Source: Thermococcus sp. LS1 (GTDB taxonomy: Archaea > Methanobacteriota_B > Thermococci > Thermococcales > Thermococcaceae). From it: a DNA stretch of 64,000 nucleotides. Both the position numbers and the translations under genes were made by a program. The stretch covers positions 620,001-684,000 of the forward strand of contig NZ_SNUJ01000001.1 in the NCBI RefSeq assembly GCF_012027395.1, written 5' to 3'. The notes below the pieces were generated by a model. The model did no database searches, had not been told where the DNA came from, and worked only from the letters and a program-made list of their open reading frames with translations. Below are positions 25,000 to 62,404 of this stretch, one piece after another; positions within the stretch are counted from its first letter, which is position 1; each line of letters opens with the position of its first letter.

Positions 25000-25394
25000 G
25001 ACTAACCCAGAATAGGGGGATTCAAGCAAGGGCCACGTAACGGGCGAAGCGAAGGATAAAACACTCCCCCCTCATGGGCATCGGGGCAAAATTGGGAACT
25101 TTCCTTATAAGGTTTTTGGATGGGAAGCGCTACGCGTCTCTCATTTTCCAAACGTTCCCTCCTGATTTTGGCTTGCTGGAGACTAGTGGAGAGAAGTGTG
25201 CCCTCCCCGACCGACCCCAGGTCACTTCTCCCAGGGGCGTGAGGGGGAGGGCGCGGTGATGATTATCTCTCTAGAGAATTTAAACCTCACGGAGAACTGG
25301 GTGACGTGAAGAGCACGGTGAGAATTGGGGGGTCCTCTAGAGGCTTGTTTACTTGGCTTGTGTCAAAAGAGGGGATTAGAAAATCGAAAGGGGC
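25000..25394. other. Long intergenic region with GC-rich structured segment
   Basis: About 395 bases between ileS and the next minus-strand gene, with no convincing coding frame. TATA-like CTTATAAGG (25104-25112) and TTTAAATT (25277-25284, better read on the minus strand) are present, plus the perfect palindromes TCTCTAGAGA (25268-25277) and CCTCTAGAGG (25333-25342). The centre holds interleaved complementary segments, listed separately. Confidence 0.5.
25191..25254. ncRNA. Possible pseudoknotted RNA element
   Basis: Two interleaved stems: GAGAAGTG (25191-25198) pairs with CACTTCTC (25223-25230), and GTGCCCTCCCC (25198-25208) pairs with GGGGAGGGCGC (25244-25254; 11 pairs, one a G-T wobble on the plus strand). 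The order 5'-5'-3'-3' is that of an H-type pseudoknot or of two competing hairpins. Strand is uncertain: the wobble favours plus, while a minus-strand TATA at 25277-25284 would place a transcription start almost exactly at 25254. It could be a separate RNA or part of a long ileS leader. Confidence 0.4.
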
Positions 25395-48652: not shown

Positions 48653-49606
48653 TTAGACAGTCGCCAGTAGTTCCCTGACCGTTCTCCTCACAGCCTCGTA
48701 GCTGTTGAGCTTTGGTTCCCAGCCGGTTTTCTTCGCCTTCTCTATGCTCAGGCGCATGAACTTGACGTCGCCCTTCCAGCCGCGGCCGCCGTCGACGCCG
48801 CCCGTGAACCTGAAGGCTGGATTTAACCCCATCTCCTCGCTGACTATCTCCGCTATCTCTTTAACTGTAATCCAGTCGTCGTTTCCAAGGTTGTAAGCGT
48901 CGTAGGTTTTGCCTTCCTTCCTGAAGTGCTCGAAGATGTGGAGCATCCCATCAACGGTGTCGCTCACGTGGAGGTAGCTCTTCCTCTGGGTTCCGTCGCC
49001 CAGGATTTCCAGCTCATTGGGGTTCTTCCTGAGCTTGTTGATGAAGTCGTATATTACGCCGTGGTTGGAGCGCTCGCCTATGATGTTGGCCAGCCTGAAG
49101 GCCAATGCCTTGAAGTCGAAGGTGTGGGCGTATCCGCTTATCAGGGCTTCAGCCGCGAGCTTCGCGCCGCCGTAGACGCTTATCGGCTCGAGCGGGGAGT
49201 AGTCCTCTGGAGTGGGAATGACCTCGGCGTCGCCGTAGACCGTTGATGATGAGGCGAAAACCAAGTATTTGACTCCGGCTTTTCTCATAGCTTCAAGGAG
49301 GTTGTAGGTTATAACGACGTTGGTCTCGTAGAGCAGCTCCGGGCTCTGGGAGCCGATTCTGACCTCAGGATTAGCGGCCAAGTGAAAAACAATATCAACA
49401 CCATCAACGGCCTTCTTCACGGTCTCCATGTTCCTCATGTCCCCTCTGATGAACTCAAACCTCTCGTGGTTCAGCCAGCGCCCAATGTTGTCCAAGCTCC
49501 CGGCGCTTAAATCGTCAAGAACCCTGACCTCGTACCCGAGCTCCATGAGCCTGTCCACGAGATGGGAACCTATGAACCCCGCACCGCCCGTGACGAGAAC
49601 CTTCAT
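48653..49606 (-). CDS. NAD-dependent sugar epimerase/dehydratase, GalE-like
   Basis: 317-residue extended short-chain dehydrogenase: GGAGFIGSH nucleotide loop (about 7-15), SSSTVYGD, and catalytic YGGAK (about 146-150). It probably acts on a UDP-hexose (4-epimerase class). The ribosome site GGTGGTTATGA precedes ATG 49606. Divergent from a sugar nucleotidyltransferase gene, which supports nucleotide-sugar synthesis for surface glycans. Confidence 0.88.
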   Translation of the reverse strand: MKVLVTGGAGFIGSHLVDRLMELGYEVRVLDDLSAGSLDNIGRWLNHERFEFIRGDMRNMETVKKAVDGVDIVFHLAANPEVRIGSQSPELLYETNVVITYNLLEAMRKAGVKYLVFASSSTVYGDAEVIPTPEDYSPLEPISVYGGAKLAAEALISGYAHTFDFKALAFRLANIIGERSNHGVIYDFINKLRKNPNELEILGDGTQRKSYLHVSDTVDGMLHIFEHFRKEGKTYDAYNLGNDDWITVKEIAEIVSEEMGLNPAFRFTGGVDGGRGWKGDVKFMRLSIEKAKKTGWEPKLNSYEAVRRTVRELLATV

Positions 49607-49693
49607 TCATAACCACCACCAATGATGAAGCAAAATTATTTAAATATGTTAGGGATAACTATGCGGTTGAAGTACGTTCAAACGGTGGGTGCC

Positions 49694-50689
49694 ATGAAGG
49701 TCCTAATAATGGCCGGTGGCTACGCAACGAGACTCTGGCCGATAACCAAGGACAACCCCAAAGCCCTCCTCCCAGTTGGGAACAAGGTGATACTCGACTA
49801 CATCCTGGAGAAGGTCGAAGAACTTGGCCTCGAAACATACATATCGACCAACAGGTTCTTCGAGATGCACTTCCGTCCCTACGCCGAGAAGAAAGGCTTG
49901 AACCTCATCGTTGAGGACACCCTCCACGAAGAAGAGAAGCTGGGCACAATGGGGGCCATGAAAAGGGCCGTCGAGGAGCTTGGCTTAGATGATTATCTCG
50001 TCATATCTGGGGACAACATCTTCTCCTTCAGCCTGGTGGACTTCCTGAAAGCCTACGACGGGAGGACCCTCATAGCGGTCTACGACGTCGGCGACCTGGA
50101 GCTGGCCAAGCGCTACGGTGTGGTCGTTCTTGAAGGCGACAGGGTCATCTCCTTCCAGGAGAAGCCGGCCGAACCGAAGTCGACCCTCGTCAGCACTGGA
50201 GTTTACGTCTTCCCGAGAAGGGTGATGGAGAAAATCGATGAGTACCTCTCCGACGGAAACAAGGATTCACCGGGCTACTTCATCCAGTGGCTCCTGGAGA
50301 ACGGTGAGGACATCAGGGCCTACCGCTTCTCAAAGTACTGGTACGACATAGGAAGTGCGGACAGCTACCTGGAGGCCCTCAAGACCCTGCTGAAGGAGAG
50401 CCGCGTCGAGGAGATTCAAATAAGCCCCTACGCCAAGATAATCCCGCCGGTGGTAATAAAGCGCGGCGCAAAGATACTGGGCAGGTCGATAATAGGGCCC
50501 TACGCCTACATAGGAGAAGAGTGTATCATAGAGAACTCCGACATCAGCGACTCGATAGTATTCAGGAAGACCATTATCAGGAACTCGACGATATGGCGCT
50601 CCATCATCGATGAGAAGTGCGAGATAAGGAACCTTGAGCTGAGAAAGAGCCTCGTCGGGGGTCACGCAAAGATACAGAGGGGCGAGTAA
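49694..50689 (+). CDS. Sugar-1-phosphate nucleotidyltransferase
   Basis: 331-residue enzyme: N-terminal nucleotidyltransferase domain (MAGGYATRLWPITKDNPKA, about 5-23) and a C-terminal left-handed beta-helix (hexapeptide repeats such as IIGPYAYIGEECIIENSDI, about 235-325). It resembles mannose-1-phosphate guanylyltransferase and UTP/dTTP-using relatives; specificity unclear. ATG 49694 follows GGTGGGTGCC. A TATA-like TTATTTAAATA (about 49635-49645) lies upstream. Confidence 0.87.
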   Translation: MKVLIMAGGYATRLWPITKDNPKALLPVGNKVILDYILEKVEELGLETYISTNRFFEMHFRPYAEKKGLNLIVEDTLHEEEKLGTMGAMKRAVEELGLDDYLVISGDNIFSFSLVDFLKAYDGRTLIAVYDVGDLELAKRYGVVVLEGDRVISFQEKPAEPKSTLVSTGVYVFPRRVMEKIDEYLSDGNKDSPGYFIQWLLENGEDIRAYRFSKYWYDIGSADSYLEALKTLLKESRVEEIQISPYAKIIPPVVIKRGAKILGRSIIGPYAYIGEECIIENSDISDSIVFRKTIIRNSTIWRSIIDEKCEIRNLELRKSLVGGHAKIQRGE

Positions 50690-50788: not shown

Positions 50789-52147
50789 ATGAAGTTTTAT
50801 GATCGTGAGCGGGAGATTGAACTCCTCAGAAGGGGCAAGAGAATTGCCATAATCGGACGGCGCAGAGTGGGAAAGACTAGATTGGTTGAGGAGGCTCTCA
50901 ACCCTATAACGCTCTTCATCCCTGCCGAAAAGAACGAGGCCTTAATATGCCGAGATTGGATCGAAGAAATTCGCGAGAGGAGATACATTCCAACGCTCAA
51001 CTCTATGAAGGAAATCGTTGAGTTCTTAATGAGGGAAGGGGAGACGATATTCATTGATGAACTCCAGAATGCCCTCAAGGTAAATCCCTCATTTCTTTAT
51101 GATCTCCAAAGGCTCCTCGACAAGTACCGCGATGCAAAGCTCGTCGTTACGGGTTCACTCATTAGTATGAGCAAGAAGCTCGTTGAGGACTATCAAGGCC
51201 CGCTTTATGGCAGGTTCGATTACATCATAAAACTCCGGGAGCTGGGTTTTGGGACAGTGACGGAAATAATGCGCGATTTGGGCTACAGCATCGAGGACGC
51301 CGTTGTGATGTGGGCGGTCTTTGGCGGCTCGCCCAAGTACTACGAGACGCTTGAGAGATTCAGTCTGCCGGTTGAGGACTTCATCCGTATGATGTTCTTT
51401 GAGGAGCCTTATCCAATGTTTCCTGAAGTCCTCATGATGCTCAAGGAGGAGCTAGGTAAGGAGTACAGGACTTACTTCAGCATCCTCCAAGCGATAAGCG
51501 AGGGCAAGAACATGCTAGGGGAGATTTCCTCTTATCTGTCCGTCAAGAGCACGAGCCTCACCAAGTATCTCGCAGCCCTTGAGCGGGAGTATGAACTGGT
51601 CACAAAGCGGAAAGATGTCTTTGAGCGGGGGAGAAACAGGTATTACATAACCCAAAACCTGGTTGACTTCTGGTTCAGGTTTCTGTGGCGGAATTATTCC
51701 AAGCTCGAGAGGAACGAGCTGAGCTTTGATAAAAACGACTTCAACGCTTACGTTGGCCGTAAGTTTGAGAGTCTGGTGGAGCTGCTTGTTCCAAAACTTG
51801 TGCCTTTTGAGGTCATCAGAACGGGCAAGCTCTGGGGGAAGTTCAAAGGCAAGGAGAAGGGTAAGGATTCCTTTGAGATTGATGTGGTCGCCCTCGGAAG
51901 GGAAGACATTGCGTTTTTTGAGGTGAAGTGGGAGGAGCTGAGCTTTGGCGAGGCCAAAAAGGAGCTCAAATTGCTGTCCAAAAAAGCCGAAGCTGTGGGG
52001 GATAAGCGGAGGGTTCATTTAGCCCTCGTCGCGAAGAGGATTGGAGGTAAAGAATGGCTAGGTGGTATGGTGTACGATTTGGAAGATTTAGACGAGATGC
52101 TGGGCAGTGGCCACACACCGTTTAGAAACGGAGCGGTAGAATCGTGA
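50789..52147 (+). CDS. Archaeal ATPase with winged helix and DUF234 nuclease-like tail (1)
   Basis: 452-residue protein. The P-loop NTPase of the archaeal ATPase_2/STAND-related family (DREREIELL, Walker A GRRRVGKT at about 24-31, Walker B IFIDELQN) is followed by a winged helix (about 235-290, LGEISSYLSVKSTSLTKYL) and a DUF234 domain with FEIDVVAL and FFEVKW, which fits a PD-(D/E)XK nuclease core (D and ExK). Known members are mobile and of unknown function; defence or selfish roles are proposed. Leaderless promoter with its own palindrome. Confidence 0.85.
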   Translation: MKFYDREREIELLRRGKRIAIIGRRRVGKTRLVEEALNPITLFIPAEKNEALICRDWIEEIRERRYIPTLNSMKEIVEFLMREGETIFIDELQNALKVNPSFLYDLQRLLDKYRDAKLVVTGSLISMSKKLVEDYQGPLYGRFDYIIKLRELGFGTVTEIMRDLGYSIEDAVVMWAVFGGSPKYYETLERFSLPVEDFIRMMFFEEPYPMFPEVLMMLKEELGKEYRTYFSILQAISEGKNMLGEISSYLSVKSTSLTKYLAALEREYELVTKRKDVFERGRNRYYITQNLVDFWFRFLWRNYSKLERNELSFDKNDFNAYVGRKFESLVELLVPKLVPFEVIRTGKLWGKFKGKEKGKDSFEIDVVALGREDIAFFEVKWEELSFGEAKKELKLLSKKAEAVGDKRRVHLALVAKRIGGKEWLGGMVYDLEDLDEMLGSGHTPFRNGAVES

Positions 52148-52311
52148 GGAGCGCCATACAGACGAGTCTGGAGTGAAGTTCCACTCTTGACAGACCTTTC
52201 CCTAGTTAATAGTGACTCCGTGACCCTCTCAGATCATGGAATCACTGTTCGGATTGGGTCTGCTCGGGGTGAAGCTTTCGCTTCAGTCTCCCTTGCACAG
52301 CACTCCTCATA
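52145..52311 (-). ncRNA. Novel structured RNA, copy 1
   Basis: Predicted minus-strand RNA of about 167 bases. A promoter with purine BRE plus TTTATATAG (52330-52338) places the start near 52310. Helices, in plus-strand coordinates: terminal stem 52300-52309 with 52145-52154 (10 pairs), GACCC/GGGUC at 52256-52260 with 52222-52226, GUCUG/CAGAC at 52191-52195 with 52166-52170 capped by GAGUG/CACUC, and a GAAGC-GAAA-GCUUC hairpin. The second copy changes bases but keeps the pairs. Wobbles are valid only on the minus strand. The 3' end overlaps the ATPase stop codon. Confidence 0.7.
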
Positions 52312-52329
52312 CACTATTAGGTGCTTTAA

Positions 52330-52339
52330 CTATATAAAC
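52330..52339 (-). promoter_or_regulatory. Promoter of structured RNA copy 1
   Basis: GTTTATATAG on the minus strand with purine-rich AGCAAAA directly upstream (BRE). The distance to the first helix base is about 25, the archaeal norm. The same element occurs at copy 2. Confidence 0.65.
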
Positions 52340-52368
52340 TTTTGCTTTTATTTAAAGCAAAATTTTTT
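52340..52368. repeat. Hairpin followed by T run
   Basis: Perfect nine-base stem TTTTGCTTT/AAAGCAAAA with a five-base loop (52340-52362), followed by six T. On the plus strand it looks like an intrinsic-type terminator, and on the minus strand it overlaps the BRE of RNA copy 1, so it could also be an operator. It is absent from copy 2. Confidence 0.5.
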
Positions 52369-52472
52369 GGCAACTTTCCGAAATAACTTCAATAAAGTTG
52401 GGAATTCGGTTTGAGAGGGAGGTGTTTAGTAGTTAGCTAGAATGGAAATCGAATCATACATCGAGAAAATAG

Positions 52473-52630
52473 TGAGGAGCACCTTGCAAGTGGGGCCTCG
52501 GTGAAAATCCCACTCTCAAGGAACACTAGGCTCGTGACTCCAGCCCTCTCGACTTATGGAACACGTTGGGCTTAGCACCCGTCAAGGGTGAAACTTTTGC
52601 TTCGGTCTCACCGACAGAGTACTCCTCATA
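52473..52630 (-). ncRNA. Novel structured RNA, copy 2
   Basis: Paralogue of copy 1, about 158 bases, promoter GTTTATATAG at 52649-52658. Terminal stem 52619-52628 with 52473-52482 keeps ten pairs with a G-C to A-U exchange. The AGCCC/GGGCU helix (52568-52572 with 52542-52546) replaces GACCC/GGGUC with two compensatory exchanges. CCUUG/CGAGG (52517-52521 with 52496-52500) capped by GUG/CAC replaces GUCUG/CAGAC. GAAGC-AAAA-GUUUC replaces the GNRA hairpin. Conserved single strands include UUCCAU, GAGAGGG and GGAGUCAC. No match to an RNA class I know. Confidence 0.7.
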
Positions 52631-52648
52631 TACTATTAGGTGCTTTAC

Positions 52649-52658
52649 CTATATAAAC
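52649..52658 (-). promoter_or_regulatory. Promoter of structured RNA copy 2
   Basis: Minus-strand GTTTATATAG with GGCAAAG upstream, same spacing to the RNA as at copy 1. The ten-base TATA element is identical in both copies. Confidence 0.65.
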
Positions 52659-52828
52659 CTTTGCCTTTTTATAATACAAGTACCTGTTGAAATATGTTCG
52701 AAACATGCCGAGTCATTAAGTCCAGAAAACAAAATAGAAGGTGCCGCTCCCGCCCGGCAATCGTTCGGAGAAGAATAAACCCAACCCTTAAATTCTGCAG
52801 AGATCAAAATTATACAGGGGCGTGGGCG

Positions 52829-53473
52829 ATGGGCGAGAGGTTAGTTAAGGTGCTGACGGTTCTCGTGGTTATTCTGCTTATCTTCAACATCGGCATGGTC
52901 TACGGTGCGCTCAAAGCCAGGAGCATAGCGTTGGAGGAAATCGACAGCGTCATAACCCTCGTGGAGGGCATGAAGAACGAGAGGATAACCATCCAGTACC
53001 CGTTCGACCAGGAGATACAGGTTCCCCTCAGGATGAACCTCAGCGTCCCCGTTTCCATGGTGGCCAGGGTTCCGGTCAACGAGGATATTGCCGTAAAGGT
53101 TCCCCTCGATACCTACGTTGACGTTCCCGTCAACACCACCGCGAGGGTGCACATCGTCCAGAACATAACTACCACAGTTGATGTGAACGGCGAGCAGGAG
53201 ACAGTGGTCATTCCGCTAGATACCTACGTCGATGTCCCCATAGTCACGACGGTCAGGGTTAGGGTCAGGGACGTCGTAGACACCACCGTGCCCCTCAACA
53301 TGACCCTTGAGGTTCCCATCAACCAGACGGTTGTTGTGCCCGTTGATGAGACGCTGACCGTTCCGATTAAGATGAACCTCACCATCGAGACAACTCCTGA
53401 GGAGATGGGCCTGGGTGAAGTGATTGATAGGGTTGTTAAGATGCTCGAGGGAATGAAGGCGGCGATTGGGTGA
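52829..53473 (+). CDS. Membrane-anchored beta-repeat stalk protein
   Basis: 214-residue protein: one N-terminal membrane helix (VLTVLVVILLIFNIGMVYG), then about ten imperfect repeats of 10-14 residues of the type VPLDTYVDVPVNTTARV / VPINQTVVVPVDETLTVP between about residues 55 and 190, and a short amphipathic end (EVIDRVVKMLEGMKAA). The alternation of Val, Pro and polar residues suggests a long beta rod or solenoid outside the cell. ATG 52829 is at the membrane helix; the frame is open upstream but non-coding-like. Two bases separate it from a TTG-started gene. Confidence 0.7.
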   Translation: MGERLVKVLTVLVVILLIFNIGMVYGALKARSIALEEIDSVITLVEGMKNERITIQYPFDQEIQVPLRMNLSVPVSMVARVPVNEDIAVKVPLDTYVDVPVNTTARVHIVQNITTTVDVNGEQETVVIPLDTYVDVPIVTTVRVRVRDVVDTTVPLNMTLEVPINQTVVVPVDETLTVPIKMNLTIETTPEEMGLGEVIDRVVKMLEGMKAAIG

Positions 53474-56631: not shown

Positions 56632-57690
56632 ATGAAGGCCCTTATTCTCTCCGGAGGTCACGGTACGAGGTTGAGACCCCTCACTTATTCCCAGCAGAAG
56701 CAGCTCATCCCCGTCGCGAATAAGCCCGTCCTGTTCTACGCCATCGAGGACGTCATCGAGGCCGGCATTCACGAGATTGGAATTATCGTCGGCCCAAACA
56801 AGGAGCAGGTGATGGAGACCGTTAGGAGCGTTGATTGGGACGCGGACATAGAGTTCATCTATCAGGGTGAGCCGAAAGGTTTAGCACACGCGATAAAGGT
56901 CGCGAGGGACTATCTCGGTGACGACGATTTTGTGATGTACCTCGGTGACAACATCCTCAGGGAAGGCATAGTGGAGCACCTGAACCACTTCAAAGGGGGA
57001 AACTTCGACGCCAGCATTTTGCTCTGTGAGGTTCCCAATCCCCAGCGGTTCGGTGTGGCCGAGCTGAGTGAGGACGGAAAGACCATCAAACGGCTGGTTG
57101 AGAAGCCCAAGGTGCCGCCGAGCAACCTGGCGCTTGTGGGAATCTACTTCTTCAAGCCCGTCATCCACGAGGCGGTCGAAAACATAAAGCCCTCCTGGAG
57201 GAACGAGCTTGAGATAACTGACGCGATCCAGTGGCTCATCGACCACGGCTATCGCGTTGGGTGGACGAAGGTCCAGAACTGGTGGAAGGACACCGGAAAG
57301 CCCGAGGACATACTCGACGCCAACAGGCTCATCCTGGACGACATCCAGACGGATATACGGGTCGAGACGAAGGCCAGAATCCATGGAAGGGTGGTCATCG
57401 GGGAAGGTACCCAGATTGACGGGAACACCGTCATAAAGGGCCCCGCGATAATCGGCAGGAACTGCATCATCAGGAACGCCTACATCGGCCCCTACACAAG
57501 CATCGGTGACAACTGCGTCATCGAGAACACCGAAATTGAGGACTCCGTGATCCTTGAGGGAAGCGAGATTAGATGCGGCGGCAGGATAGTAGAGAGCCTC
57601 ATAGGGAAGAACGTGAAGATTTTAGAGGGGAACAACCACCCCATTGGAAGGAAGCTGGTCGTCGGCGACAACTCCCAGTTGATGCTGTGA
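56632..57690 (+). CDS. rmlA: Glucose-1-phosphate thymidylyltransferase, long form
   Basis: 352-residue RmlA: nucleotidyltransferase core with GGHGTRLRPLTYSQQKQL (about 8-25) and an additional C-terminal left-handed beta-helix (about 250-345), as in the long archaeal and actinobacterial forms. It makes dTDP-glucose, the first step of dTDP-L-rhamnose synthesis. GGCGGTGGATAATC precedes the ATG; rmlB follows after nine bases. Confidence 0.93.
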   Translation: MKALILSGGHGTRLRPLTYSQQKQLIPVANKPVLFYAIEDVIEAGIHEIGIIVGPNKEQVMETVRSVDWDADIEFIYQGEPKGLAHAIKVARDYLGDDDFVMYLGDNILREGIVEHLNHFKGGNFDASILLCEVPNPQRFGVAELSEDGKTIKRLVEKPKVPPSNLALVGIYFFKPVIHEAVENIKPSWRNELEITDAIQWLIDHGYRVGWTKVQNWWKDTGKPEDILDANRLILDDIQTDIRVETKARIHGRVVIGEGTQIDGNTVIKGPAIIGRNCIIRNAYIGPYTSIGDNCVIENTEIEDSVILEGSEIRCGGRIVESLIGKNVKILEGNNHPIGRKLVVGDNSQLML

Positions 57691-57699
57691 GGTGGGACC

Positions 57700-58701
57700 A
57701 TGAGACTCTTGGTGACCGGTGGAATGGGCTTCATAGGGAGCAACTTCATCCGCTACATCCTGGAAAAGCACCCTGACTGGGAAGTGATAAACCTCGACAA
57801 GCTCGGCTACGGCTCGAATCCGGCAAATTTGAAAGACATCGAGGACGACCCGCGCTACACCTTCGTCAAGGGAGACATAGCGGACTTCGAGCTCGTTAAG
57901 GAGTTAATCAAGAAAGTTGATGCGGTGGTTAACTTCGCCGCCGAGAGCCATGTGGACAGAAGCATCTCAAGTCCGGAGCACTTTCTGAAAAGCAACGTCA
58001 TCGGTGTTTACACCATTTTAGAGGCGATAAGAAAGGAGAACCCTGAAGTTAGACTAGTTCACGTGAGCACCGATGAAGTCTACGGCGATATCCTGGAAGG
58101 CTCGTTCACCGAAAAAGACGCGCTTATGCCCTCATCTCCATACTCCGCTACTAAAGCTGCCAGTGATGTTCTCGTGCTTGGCTGGACGCGGACTTACAGT
58201 CTGAACGCCTCCATAACGAGGTGCACCAACAACTACGGCCCCTATCAGTTCCCGGAAAAGCTCATCCCCAAGACGATAATCAGGGCCAGTATGGGGCTGA
58301 AAATCCCCATCTATGGCACCGGCCAGAACGTCAGGGACTGGCTCTACGTCGAAGACCACGTCAGGGCAATCGAGCGGGTCCTCCTGAAGGGCGAACCGAG
58401 GGAAGTGTACAACATCTCTGCCGGAGAGGAAAAGACCAACCTCGATGTAGTTAAGACCATCCTCAAGCTGATGGACAAAGGCGAGGATTTGATTGAGTTC
58501 GTCGCGGACAGGCCCGGCCACGATTTGAGGTACTCCCTCGACTCCTGGAAGATAACGCGCGACCTCAAGTGGAGGCCCAGATATAACTTCGAAGAAGGCA
58601 TCAGGAAGACCGTTAACTGGTACCTTGAGAACGAGTGGTGGTGGAGGCCTCTGGTGAACGAGAAGGTCCTCCACCCGACGCCGTGGAAGCTGGGGTGGTG
58701 A
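57700..58701 (+). CDS. rmlB: dTDP-glucose 4,6-dehydratase
   Basis: 333-residue extended short-chain dehydrogenase: GGMGFIGSN (about 7-15), HVSTDEVYGD with the Asp-Glu catalytic pair (about 117-126) and YSATK (about 147-151). Second step of dTDP-rhamnose synthesis. Ribosome site GAGGTGGGACC. The following gene of the pathway (rmlC) is separated from it by two toxin-antitoxin modules. Confidence 0.94.
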   Translation: MRLLVTGGMGFIGSNFIRYILEKHPDWEVINLDKLGYGSNPANLKDIEDDPRYTFVKGDIADFELVKELIKKVDAVVNFAAESHVDRSISSPEHFLKSNVIGVYTILEAIRKENPEVRLVHVSTDEVYGDILEGSFTEKDALMPSSPYSATKAASDVLVLGWTRTYSLNASITRCTNNYGPYQFPEKLIPKTIIRASMGLKIPIYGTGQNVRDWLYVEDHVRAIERVLLKGEPREVYNISAGEEKTNLDVVKTILKLMDKGEDLIEFVADRPGHDLRYSLDSWKITRDLKWRPRYNFEEGIRKTVNWYLENEWWWRPLVNEKVLHPTPWKLGW

Positions 58702-59333: not shown

Positions 59334-59367
59334 GATGGGTTATTAATCACTTGGCAGTAAGCAAAAG

Positions 59368-59401
59368 CTGACCTCCTCCCGCCCTAAAGGGCGAGGCTTT
59401 C
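59368..59401 (-). mobile_element. Solo IS200/IS605-type end, minus orientation
   Basis: On the minus strand: GAAAGCCTCGCCCT, AA, AGGGCGGGAGGAGGTCAG. This is the right-end hairpin common to IS200/IS605 elements (also the 3' part of TnpB guide-RNA scaffolds). No tnpA or tnpB is present, so it is a solo remnant. The plus-oriented partner is at 62357. Confidence 0.6.
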
Positions 59402-59451
59402 AAAAGAAAAAGTAATTAAGTTCCGCGAGAATGTTTAGGATGGTGAACGTG

Positions 59452-59655
59452 ATGGAGGACGCTTACAAGCTCTTTCAGCAGCTCCCAGATGACCTCAAGG
59501 AGGAGGTGCTGGACTACATCGAGTTCCTCCTAGAGAGGAACGCGCGCAGGAGACGCTCCCCCATGAAGTTTGGATGGCGCGGGGGGCTGAAGGAGCTCAG
59601 GAAGAAGTACACTTCCGTGGAGCTTCAGCACAAGGCCCTTGAATGGTGGGGCTGA
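59452..59655 (+). CDS. DUF2281-type antitoxin (module 2)
   Basis: 67-residue protein MEDAYKLFQQLPDDLKEEVLDYIEFLLERN, the pattern of the DUF2281 family, often antitoxins of PIN toxins. ATG 59452 after GGTGAACGTG; longer in-frame starts at 59431 and 59440 are possible. The stop overlaps the start of vapC2 (TGATG). Confidence 0.75.
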   Translation: MEDAYKLFQQLPDDLKEEVLDYIEFLLERNARRRRSPMKFGWRGGLKELRKKYTSVELQHKALEWWG

Positions 59656-62260: not shown

Positions 62261-62312
62261 GTATTATATGATGCAAAAATGAAGCAAGAATGATGCAAAA
62301 GATGCAAAAAAG

Positions 62313-62345
62313 GTGAACCCTATGAGCGAGGCAGGTCAGGCTTTA
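62313..62345 (+). pseudogene. Flippase gene 5' remnant 3
   Basis: GTGAACCCTATGAGCGAGGC encodes MNPMSEA then GQAL, after which the solo IS200/IS605-type end follows within about a dozen bases. Only about eleven codons of the flippase start remain, apparently truncated by the insertion. Confidence 0.5.
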
Positions 62346-62356
62346 CATTTTTCTTT

Positions 62357-62390
62357 GAAAGCCTCGCCCTTCAGGCAAGGAGGAGGTCAG
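62357..62390 (+). mobile_element. Solo IS200/IS605-type end, plus orientation
   Basis: GAAAGCCTCGCCCTTCAGGC followed by AAGGAGGAGGTCAG, the same right-end motif as at 59368 but in the opposite direction. No transposase frame nearby. It abuts flippase remnant 3 and lies 33 bases before the palindrome of ATPase 4. Confidence 0.6.
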
Positions 62391-62404
62391 GTTGCTAAAA
62401 CCAA

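Follow-up and report, generated by a model that had tools for sequence, protein, structure and literature searches.

A structured small RNA family of Thermococcaceae encoded beside surface-glycan and sulfate-activation genes

What is encoded by the two diverged units that lie in tandem within a non-coding stretch of the Thermococcus sp. LS1 genome? The window analyzed here is a stretch of 64,000 nucleotides, and the coordinates of the two units refer to it. The initial annotation had read the units as two structured RNAs on the minus strand that matched no known archaeal RNA family. Both RNAs are present, with homologues of kept pairing in 40 genomes, and Rfam 15 gave no match even at permissive thresholds. 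It is nearly certain that the two RNAs, termed A and B, belong to a non-coding RNA family that Rfam does not list. The best explanation, offered tentatively from the sequence, is that a stand-alone, protein-binding RNA serves a sulfated-glycan locus.

Tandem units, promoters and unit ends

RNA B lies at 52138-52309 on the minus strand, where covariance model R1 matched 52136-52312 with 164.6 bits. Its core from UGAGG to CUCAC covers 52309-52144 (166 nt), and the 3' end is predicted at GAUUCU, around 52138. RNA A lies at 52464-52628 on the same strand (R1 match 52464-52631, 127.7 bits), with a core of 157 nt at 52628-52472 between the same two motifs and a predicted 3' end, UAUUUUCU, at 52464. 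Single-sequence folding against 300 dinucleotide shuffles gave z values of -3.0 for A and -5.5 for B. Protein coding was rejected, with any frame on either strand open in just 7-8 of 47 members.

The same BRE/TATA element had been noted ahead of each unit, and the block GCAAA(A/G)GTTTATATAGnTAAAGCACCTAATAGT indeed precedes both A and B. The promoter of RNA B (52331-52345, minus strand) consists of the BRE GCAAAAG and the TATA box TTTATATA at 52338-52331. The promoter of RNA A (52650-52664, minus strand) consists of the BRE GCAAAGG and the identical TATA box at 52657-52650. From the end of the TATA box to UGAGG the distance is about 22 bases, and the 30 bases upstream of A and B are nearly identical. 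The BRE/TATA promoter is kept in nearly all family members. RNA B is further preceded by a conserved upstream element, GAAGTTATTTCGGAAAGTTGCCAAAAAATTTTGCTTTAAATAAAAGCAAA, at 52341-52390 on the minus strand, which holds a TTTTGC/GCAAAA inverted repeat and is possibly a regulator site. At B-type loci this element stays with the RNA regardless of the adjoining gene. A shared operator was considered and rejected, with one site only in the window and the genome.

The ends of the unit are defined by a genome (G041) that holds two copies about 28 kb apart, because these copies match only from UGAGG to UAUUCU. The two are identical within those limits, while their promoters have diverged and their outer flanks are unrelated.

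Conserved pairing on the minus strand

Common to the whole family is a long terminal stem (P1) of 15-18 bp, whose ends UGAGG/CUCA are almost invariant. The other shared parts are a short GAC/RGCC helix, the P2 hairpin GAAGC-GAAA-GCUUC, an arm (P3) that is long and variable, and a hairpin region (P4) with the conserved sequence GRAACUUCAC. The terminal stem first described from the two copies is thus held across the family and is longer than the 10 pairs given to it, and the tetraloop hairpin is likewise held across the family in P2. Two further helices proposed from the two copies do not extend to the family. Single pairs of GACCC/GGGUC fall to 52% of homologues and those of GUCUG/CAGAC to 14%, and a GCAGACC/GGUCUGU helix with compensatory change takes their place.

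Pairing was found in 88.6% of cells among 40 sequences, compared with 35-45% when the partners were slid. Changes on both sides were found at 29 of the 48 pairs (0 of 500 shuffles). When the null preserved the tree, the B-type group had 19 compensatory branch events where 4.1 were expected (sd 2.0; 0 of 300), and the other genera had 25 where 4.0 were expected (sd 2.0; 0 of 300). The covariation support is pooled evidence, because a pairwise G-test with a tree-based null gave no significant single column pair; the pooled tests were significant. Compensatory changes above chance on the minus strand place the units among structured non-coding RNAs.

The unit is nearly palindromic, so the model scores on both strands. 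The strand is indicated by the wobble pairs, as the initial annotation had argued. The P1 cells hold 134 G-U against 22 A-C, and this excess establishes the minus strand as the sense strand.

Genomic neighborhood and distribution

The RNAs of the family keep a lasting position beside genes for an AglB-type oligosaccharyltransferase, a sugar nucleotidyltransferase, an epimerase, or ATP sulfurylase/APS kinase. Surface-glycan or sulfate-activation genes (sulfate adenylyltransferase, APS kinase, STT3/AglB, NTP_transferase, epimerase) lie within 8 kb at 43 of 44 loci and at 1 of 20 control stretches; the 43/44 figure is descriptive, because the gene groups were picked from the same loci and most loci share one ancestral position. 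The commonest gene pair beside the RNA is an epimerase with a nucleotidyltransferase. In the window these are an NDP-sugar epimerase (48653-49606, minus strand; Pfam Epimerase, within 8 kb at 23 of the 44 loci) and a sugar-1-phosphate nucleotidyltransferase (49622-50689, plus strand; Pfam NTP_transferase, 28 of the 44 loci). This synteny with surface-glycan and sulfation genes had been missed before.

The RNA region of the window is flanked on both sides by paralogous nucleotidyltransferase-epimerase pairs, at 48653-50689 and 56632-58698. At 52829-53473 on the plus strand, a predicted secreted or membrane-anchored protein with repeated VPxxx/VDVPVxT motifs is encoded, for which Pfam and NCBIfam gave no match. 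Relatives of this protein also adjoin the tandem RNAs in two other genomes (G046 and G097). The convergent neighbor of RNA B is an archaeal AAA ATPase with a DUF234 domain (50789-52147, plus strand; Pfam ATPase_2 and DUF234).

Such an arrangement would suit a local antisense or transcription-boundary element that shapes the expression of its neighbors in cis through transcription or a terminator. The next downstream gene is convergent at 37 of 43 loci and the upstream gene divergent at 34 of 44. In two RNA-free genomes (G018 and G007) the nucleotidyltransferase and aglB genes are 10-13 bp apart in one operon, and in G013 and related genomes the RNA sits between them. However, the neighbors vary among ATPase, epimerase, nucleotidyltransferase, dehydrogenases and permease while the RNA interior is conserved, and both the compensatory changes and the distant second copies are superfluous for a cis role. 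A cis element is therefore considered unlikely. In G013 (L052), two hairpins of nearly the same sequence, AGACCCCACC...GGTAGGGTCT, lie after the RNA in the interval before the nucleotidyltransferase gene.

DNA searches of 80 relatives turned up B-like units in 19 genomes, while 12 genomes gave A-like matches, all in the genus of the window. B-type relatives of 90% identity occur in G025 and G046, and A-type orthologues in G046 and G097 only. Both types are thus found together in the window, G046 and G097, and A lies on a long branch. A first covariance model gave matches in all six genera of Thermococcaceae. With a second model built from 40 members, the RNA was found in 40 of 94 Thermococcales genomes, at one or two copies per genome. 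No RNA match was obtained with the covariance models in the other phylum members searched, outside Thermococcaceae. The RNA is not essential, because roughly half of the complete genomes are without it.

The carriers include genomes that we take to be T. onnurineus (G046), T. sibiricus (G110), T. barophilus (G118), T. paralvinellae (G119) and Palaeococcus pacificus (G082). The genomes without the RNA presumably include T. kodakarensis (G011), T. gammatolerans (G015), P. horikoshii (G086) and P. yayanosii (G092). This presumed pattern would explain why the RNA was missed in the T. kodakarensis transcriptome (PMC4247193) and in the P. abyssi screens (PMC3124441).

Patchy presence would also be expected of a passenger at a recombination hot spot or of a small hairpin-forming mobile DNA element whose transcription is incidental. 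Decayed copies point the same way. A clear remnant with an internal deletion lies at the expected place in G034, and weak 141-base model matches of 25-26 bits in G007 (L180) and G112 (L179) may be relics or chance. The tandem and dispersed duplicates, the nearly palindromic unit that scores on both strands, and the two tRNA genes that adjoin the RNA in G014 (L046:10389-10554) are consistent with this explanation as well. Against it stand the G-U excess on one strand and the promoter that is kept with the RNA. Neither a target-site duplication nor a linked transposase was seen, and phage and plasmid records gave no match. A passenger or mobile element is accordingly judged improbable. A phage or plasmid origin was likewise rejected on the record searches; two IMG/VR contigs with a common 18-base hairpin gave weak partial model matches only. 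The weak match in G007 begins directly after a coding gene that resembles triosephosphate isomerase.

The presence of the RNA was also compared with sulfate activation in genomes at least 90% complete. Of 36 carriers, 34 had ATP sulfurylase, as did 19 of the 39 non-carriers (p about 1e-5 by a Fisher test that ignores phylogeny). The same test, which ignores phylogeny, gives the link p=0.001 inside genus g1 and p=0.007 for the remaining genera. APS kinase showed a similar co-occurrence. CODH, used as a control, had no overall association (p=0.62) and a weak one outside g1 (p=0.02). The co-occurrence does not come from linkage alone, because ATP sulfurylase is more than 100 kb away from the RNA in at least 9 carriers. 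The apparent tie to sulfated surface glycans is an association.

Alternative folds, known RNA classes and possible function

Consensus folding with RIBOSUM scoring gave a rod rather than a cloverleaf. The rod contains a helix between the 3' strand of P2 and the 5' strand of P4. Constrained energies place the two folds within about 1 kcal/mol of each other in many B-type and g21 members, and at -75.8 and -76.2 kcal/mol in B of the window. In genus g22 the rod is mostly favored, usually by 4 to 14 kcal/mol; in A of the window the cloverleaf is favored by about 7 kcal/mol. The best explanation for RNA A is a tandem duplicate that has lost the rod fold. By these predicted energies, two folds of nearly equal stability are open to most members. 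The two folds may be a switch, or they may be a by-product of the similar sequence in both hairpins.

A rod with a conserved center recalls bacterial 6S RNA, and by analogy the family could be a general transcription regulator that binds RNA polymerase. The length is about that of 6S RNA, the rod comes close to the minimum energy in most members and is the best fold in g22, and the sequence is most conserved in the middle of the molecule. However, the patchy, lineage-restricted distribution and the fixed gene neighborhood are unlike a general regulator, the alternative cloverleaf is unlike 6S RNA, and neither sequence nor Rfam 6S models gave a match. A 6S-like role is considered quite doubtful.

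No Rfam 15 match at the gathering threshold was found in the window or in four member loci from four genera at the RNA sites. Permissive scans of the RNA regions, with members of three clades, gave sub-threshold chance matches only, so the earlier expectation that no known class would fit is borne out. HgcC (RF00062) was absent among the Rfam matches to E=10 in the RNA region, and snoRNA-type models for C/D or H/ACA guide RNAs had no match at the site. Elsewhere in the window, the HgcC model matched below threshold at 59355-59486 and 62292-62402 (29.5 and 22.6 bits; cut-off 50), and a Pab91 H/ACA guide RNA was found at 25197-25252 on the minus strand (71.1 against an Rfam gathering score of 71).

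The genome G046, which we take to be that of T. onnurineus NA1, holds the tandem A/B pair. For T. onnurineus NA1, the main text of PMC5316973 gives 57 intergenic transcription start sites and intergenic ncRNAs, which in that text are, unlike the present RNAs, neither named nor described as a family. The A and B transcripts of G046 may be among the intergenic start sites of that study. HgcC and the other Hgc/SscA RNAs of hyperthermophiles (Klein et al. 2002, as cited in PMC4247193) are, like the present family, small GC-rich structured Thermococcales RNAs that were found by composition or comparison and have several copies per genome; in contrast, HgcC is partly tied to transposase genes and the present family to glycan and sulfate genes. 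The P. abyssi RNAs sRk48, sRk52, sRkB and sRkC come from the ends of OrfB (TnpB) transposase genes and bind L7Ae via a K-turn or K-loop (PMC3124441). These thermococcal ncRNAs share covarying stems, BRE/TATA promoters and repeated loci with the present family, which has no transposase tie and in which no K-turn was seen by eye. That the family is a transposon-related RNA of a kind known from Thermococcales, whether HgcC or associated with TnpB (omega RNA or sRk48-52), is very improbable, since TnpB-like genes near the RNA (G025, G004, G119) occur at few of the 44 loci only, on the opposite strand where adjacent, and the HgcC matches of this genome lie away from the site and below the cut-off.

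The stand-alone, protein-binding RNA that serves a sulfated-glycan locus remains the preferred explanation. An own promoter, compact unit ends, minus-strand pairing, no coding frame and patchy presence are the features read from the sequence, and they would fit genes that encode a small RNA of about 165-185 nt, stand-alone and highly structured, in a Thermococcaceae family. The RNA would be expressed and would act in trans through protein binding. Protein binding is inferred, and long antisense pairing is unlikely, because both folds leave few bases of the RNA unpaired. The likeliest task would be the control or support of cell-surface sulfated-glycan synthesis. A protein-binding, glycan-linked function is possible and is put forward with some reserve.

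The rod and the cloverleaf could be working states. A two-state RNA that acts in trans to control cell-surface sulfation or N-glycosylation is a rather unlikely extension, in which the switch might sense a sulfate-activation intermediate or sequester a protein. Novelty is claimed for the RNA family, and the mechanism may turn out to be of a known type. Literature searches found no description of the family. Little is understood about RNA regulators in archaea, and to our knowledge none governs surface glycans or sulfation. If true, the two-state reading would make this the first RNA known to regulate surface glycans in archaea. The new family offers a concrete target: its evolutionary support is strong, its place in the genome is fixed and it has a metabolic correlate. 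Some Thermococcus species are transformable, so that deletion and pull-down are feasible.
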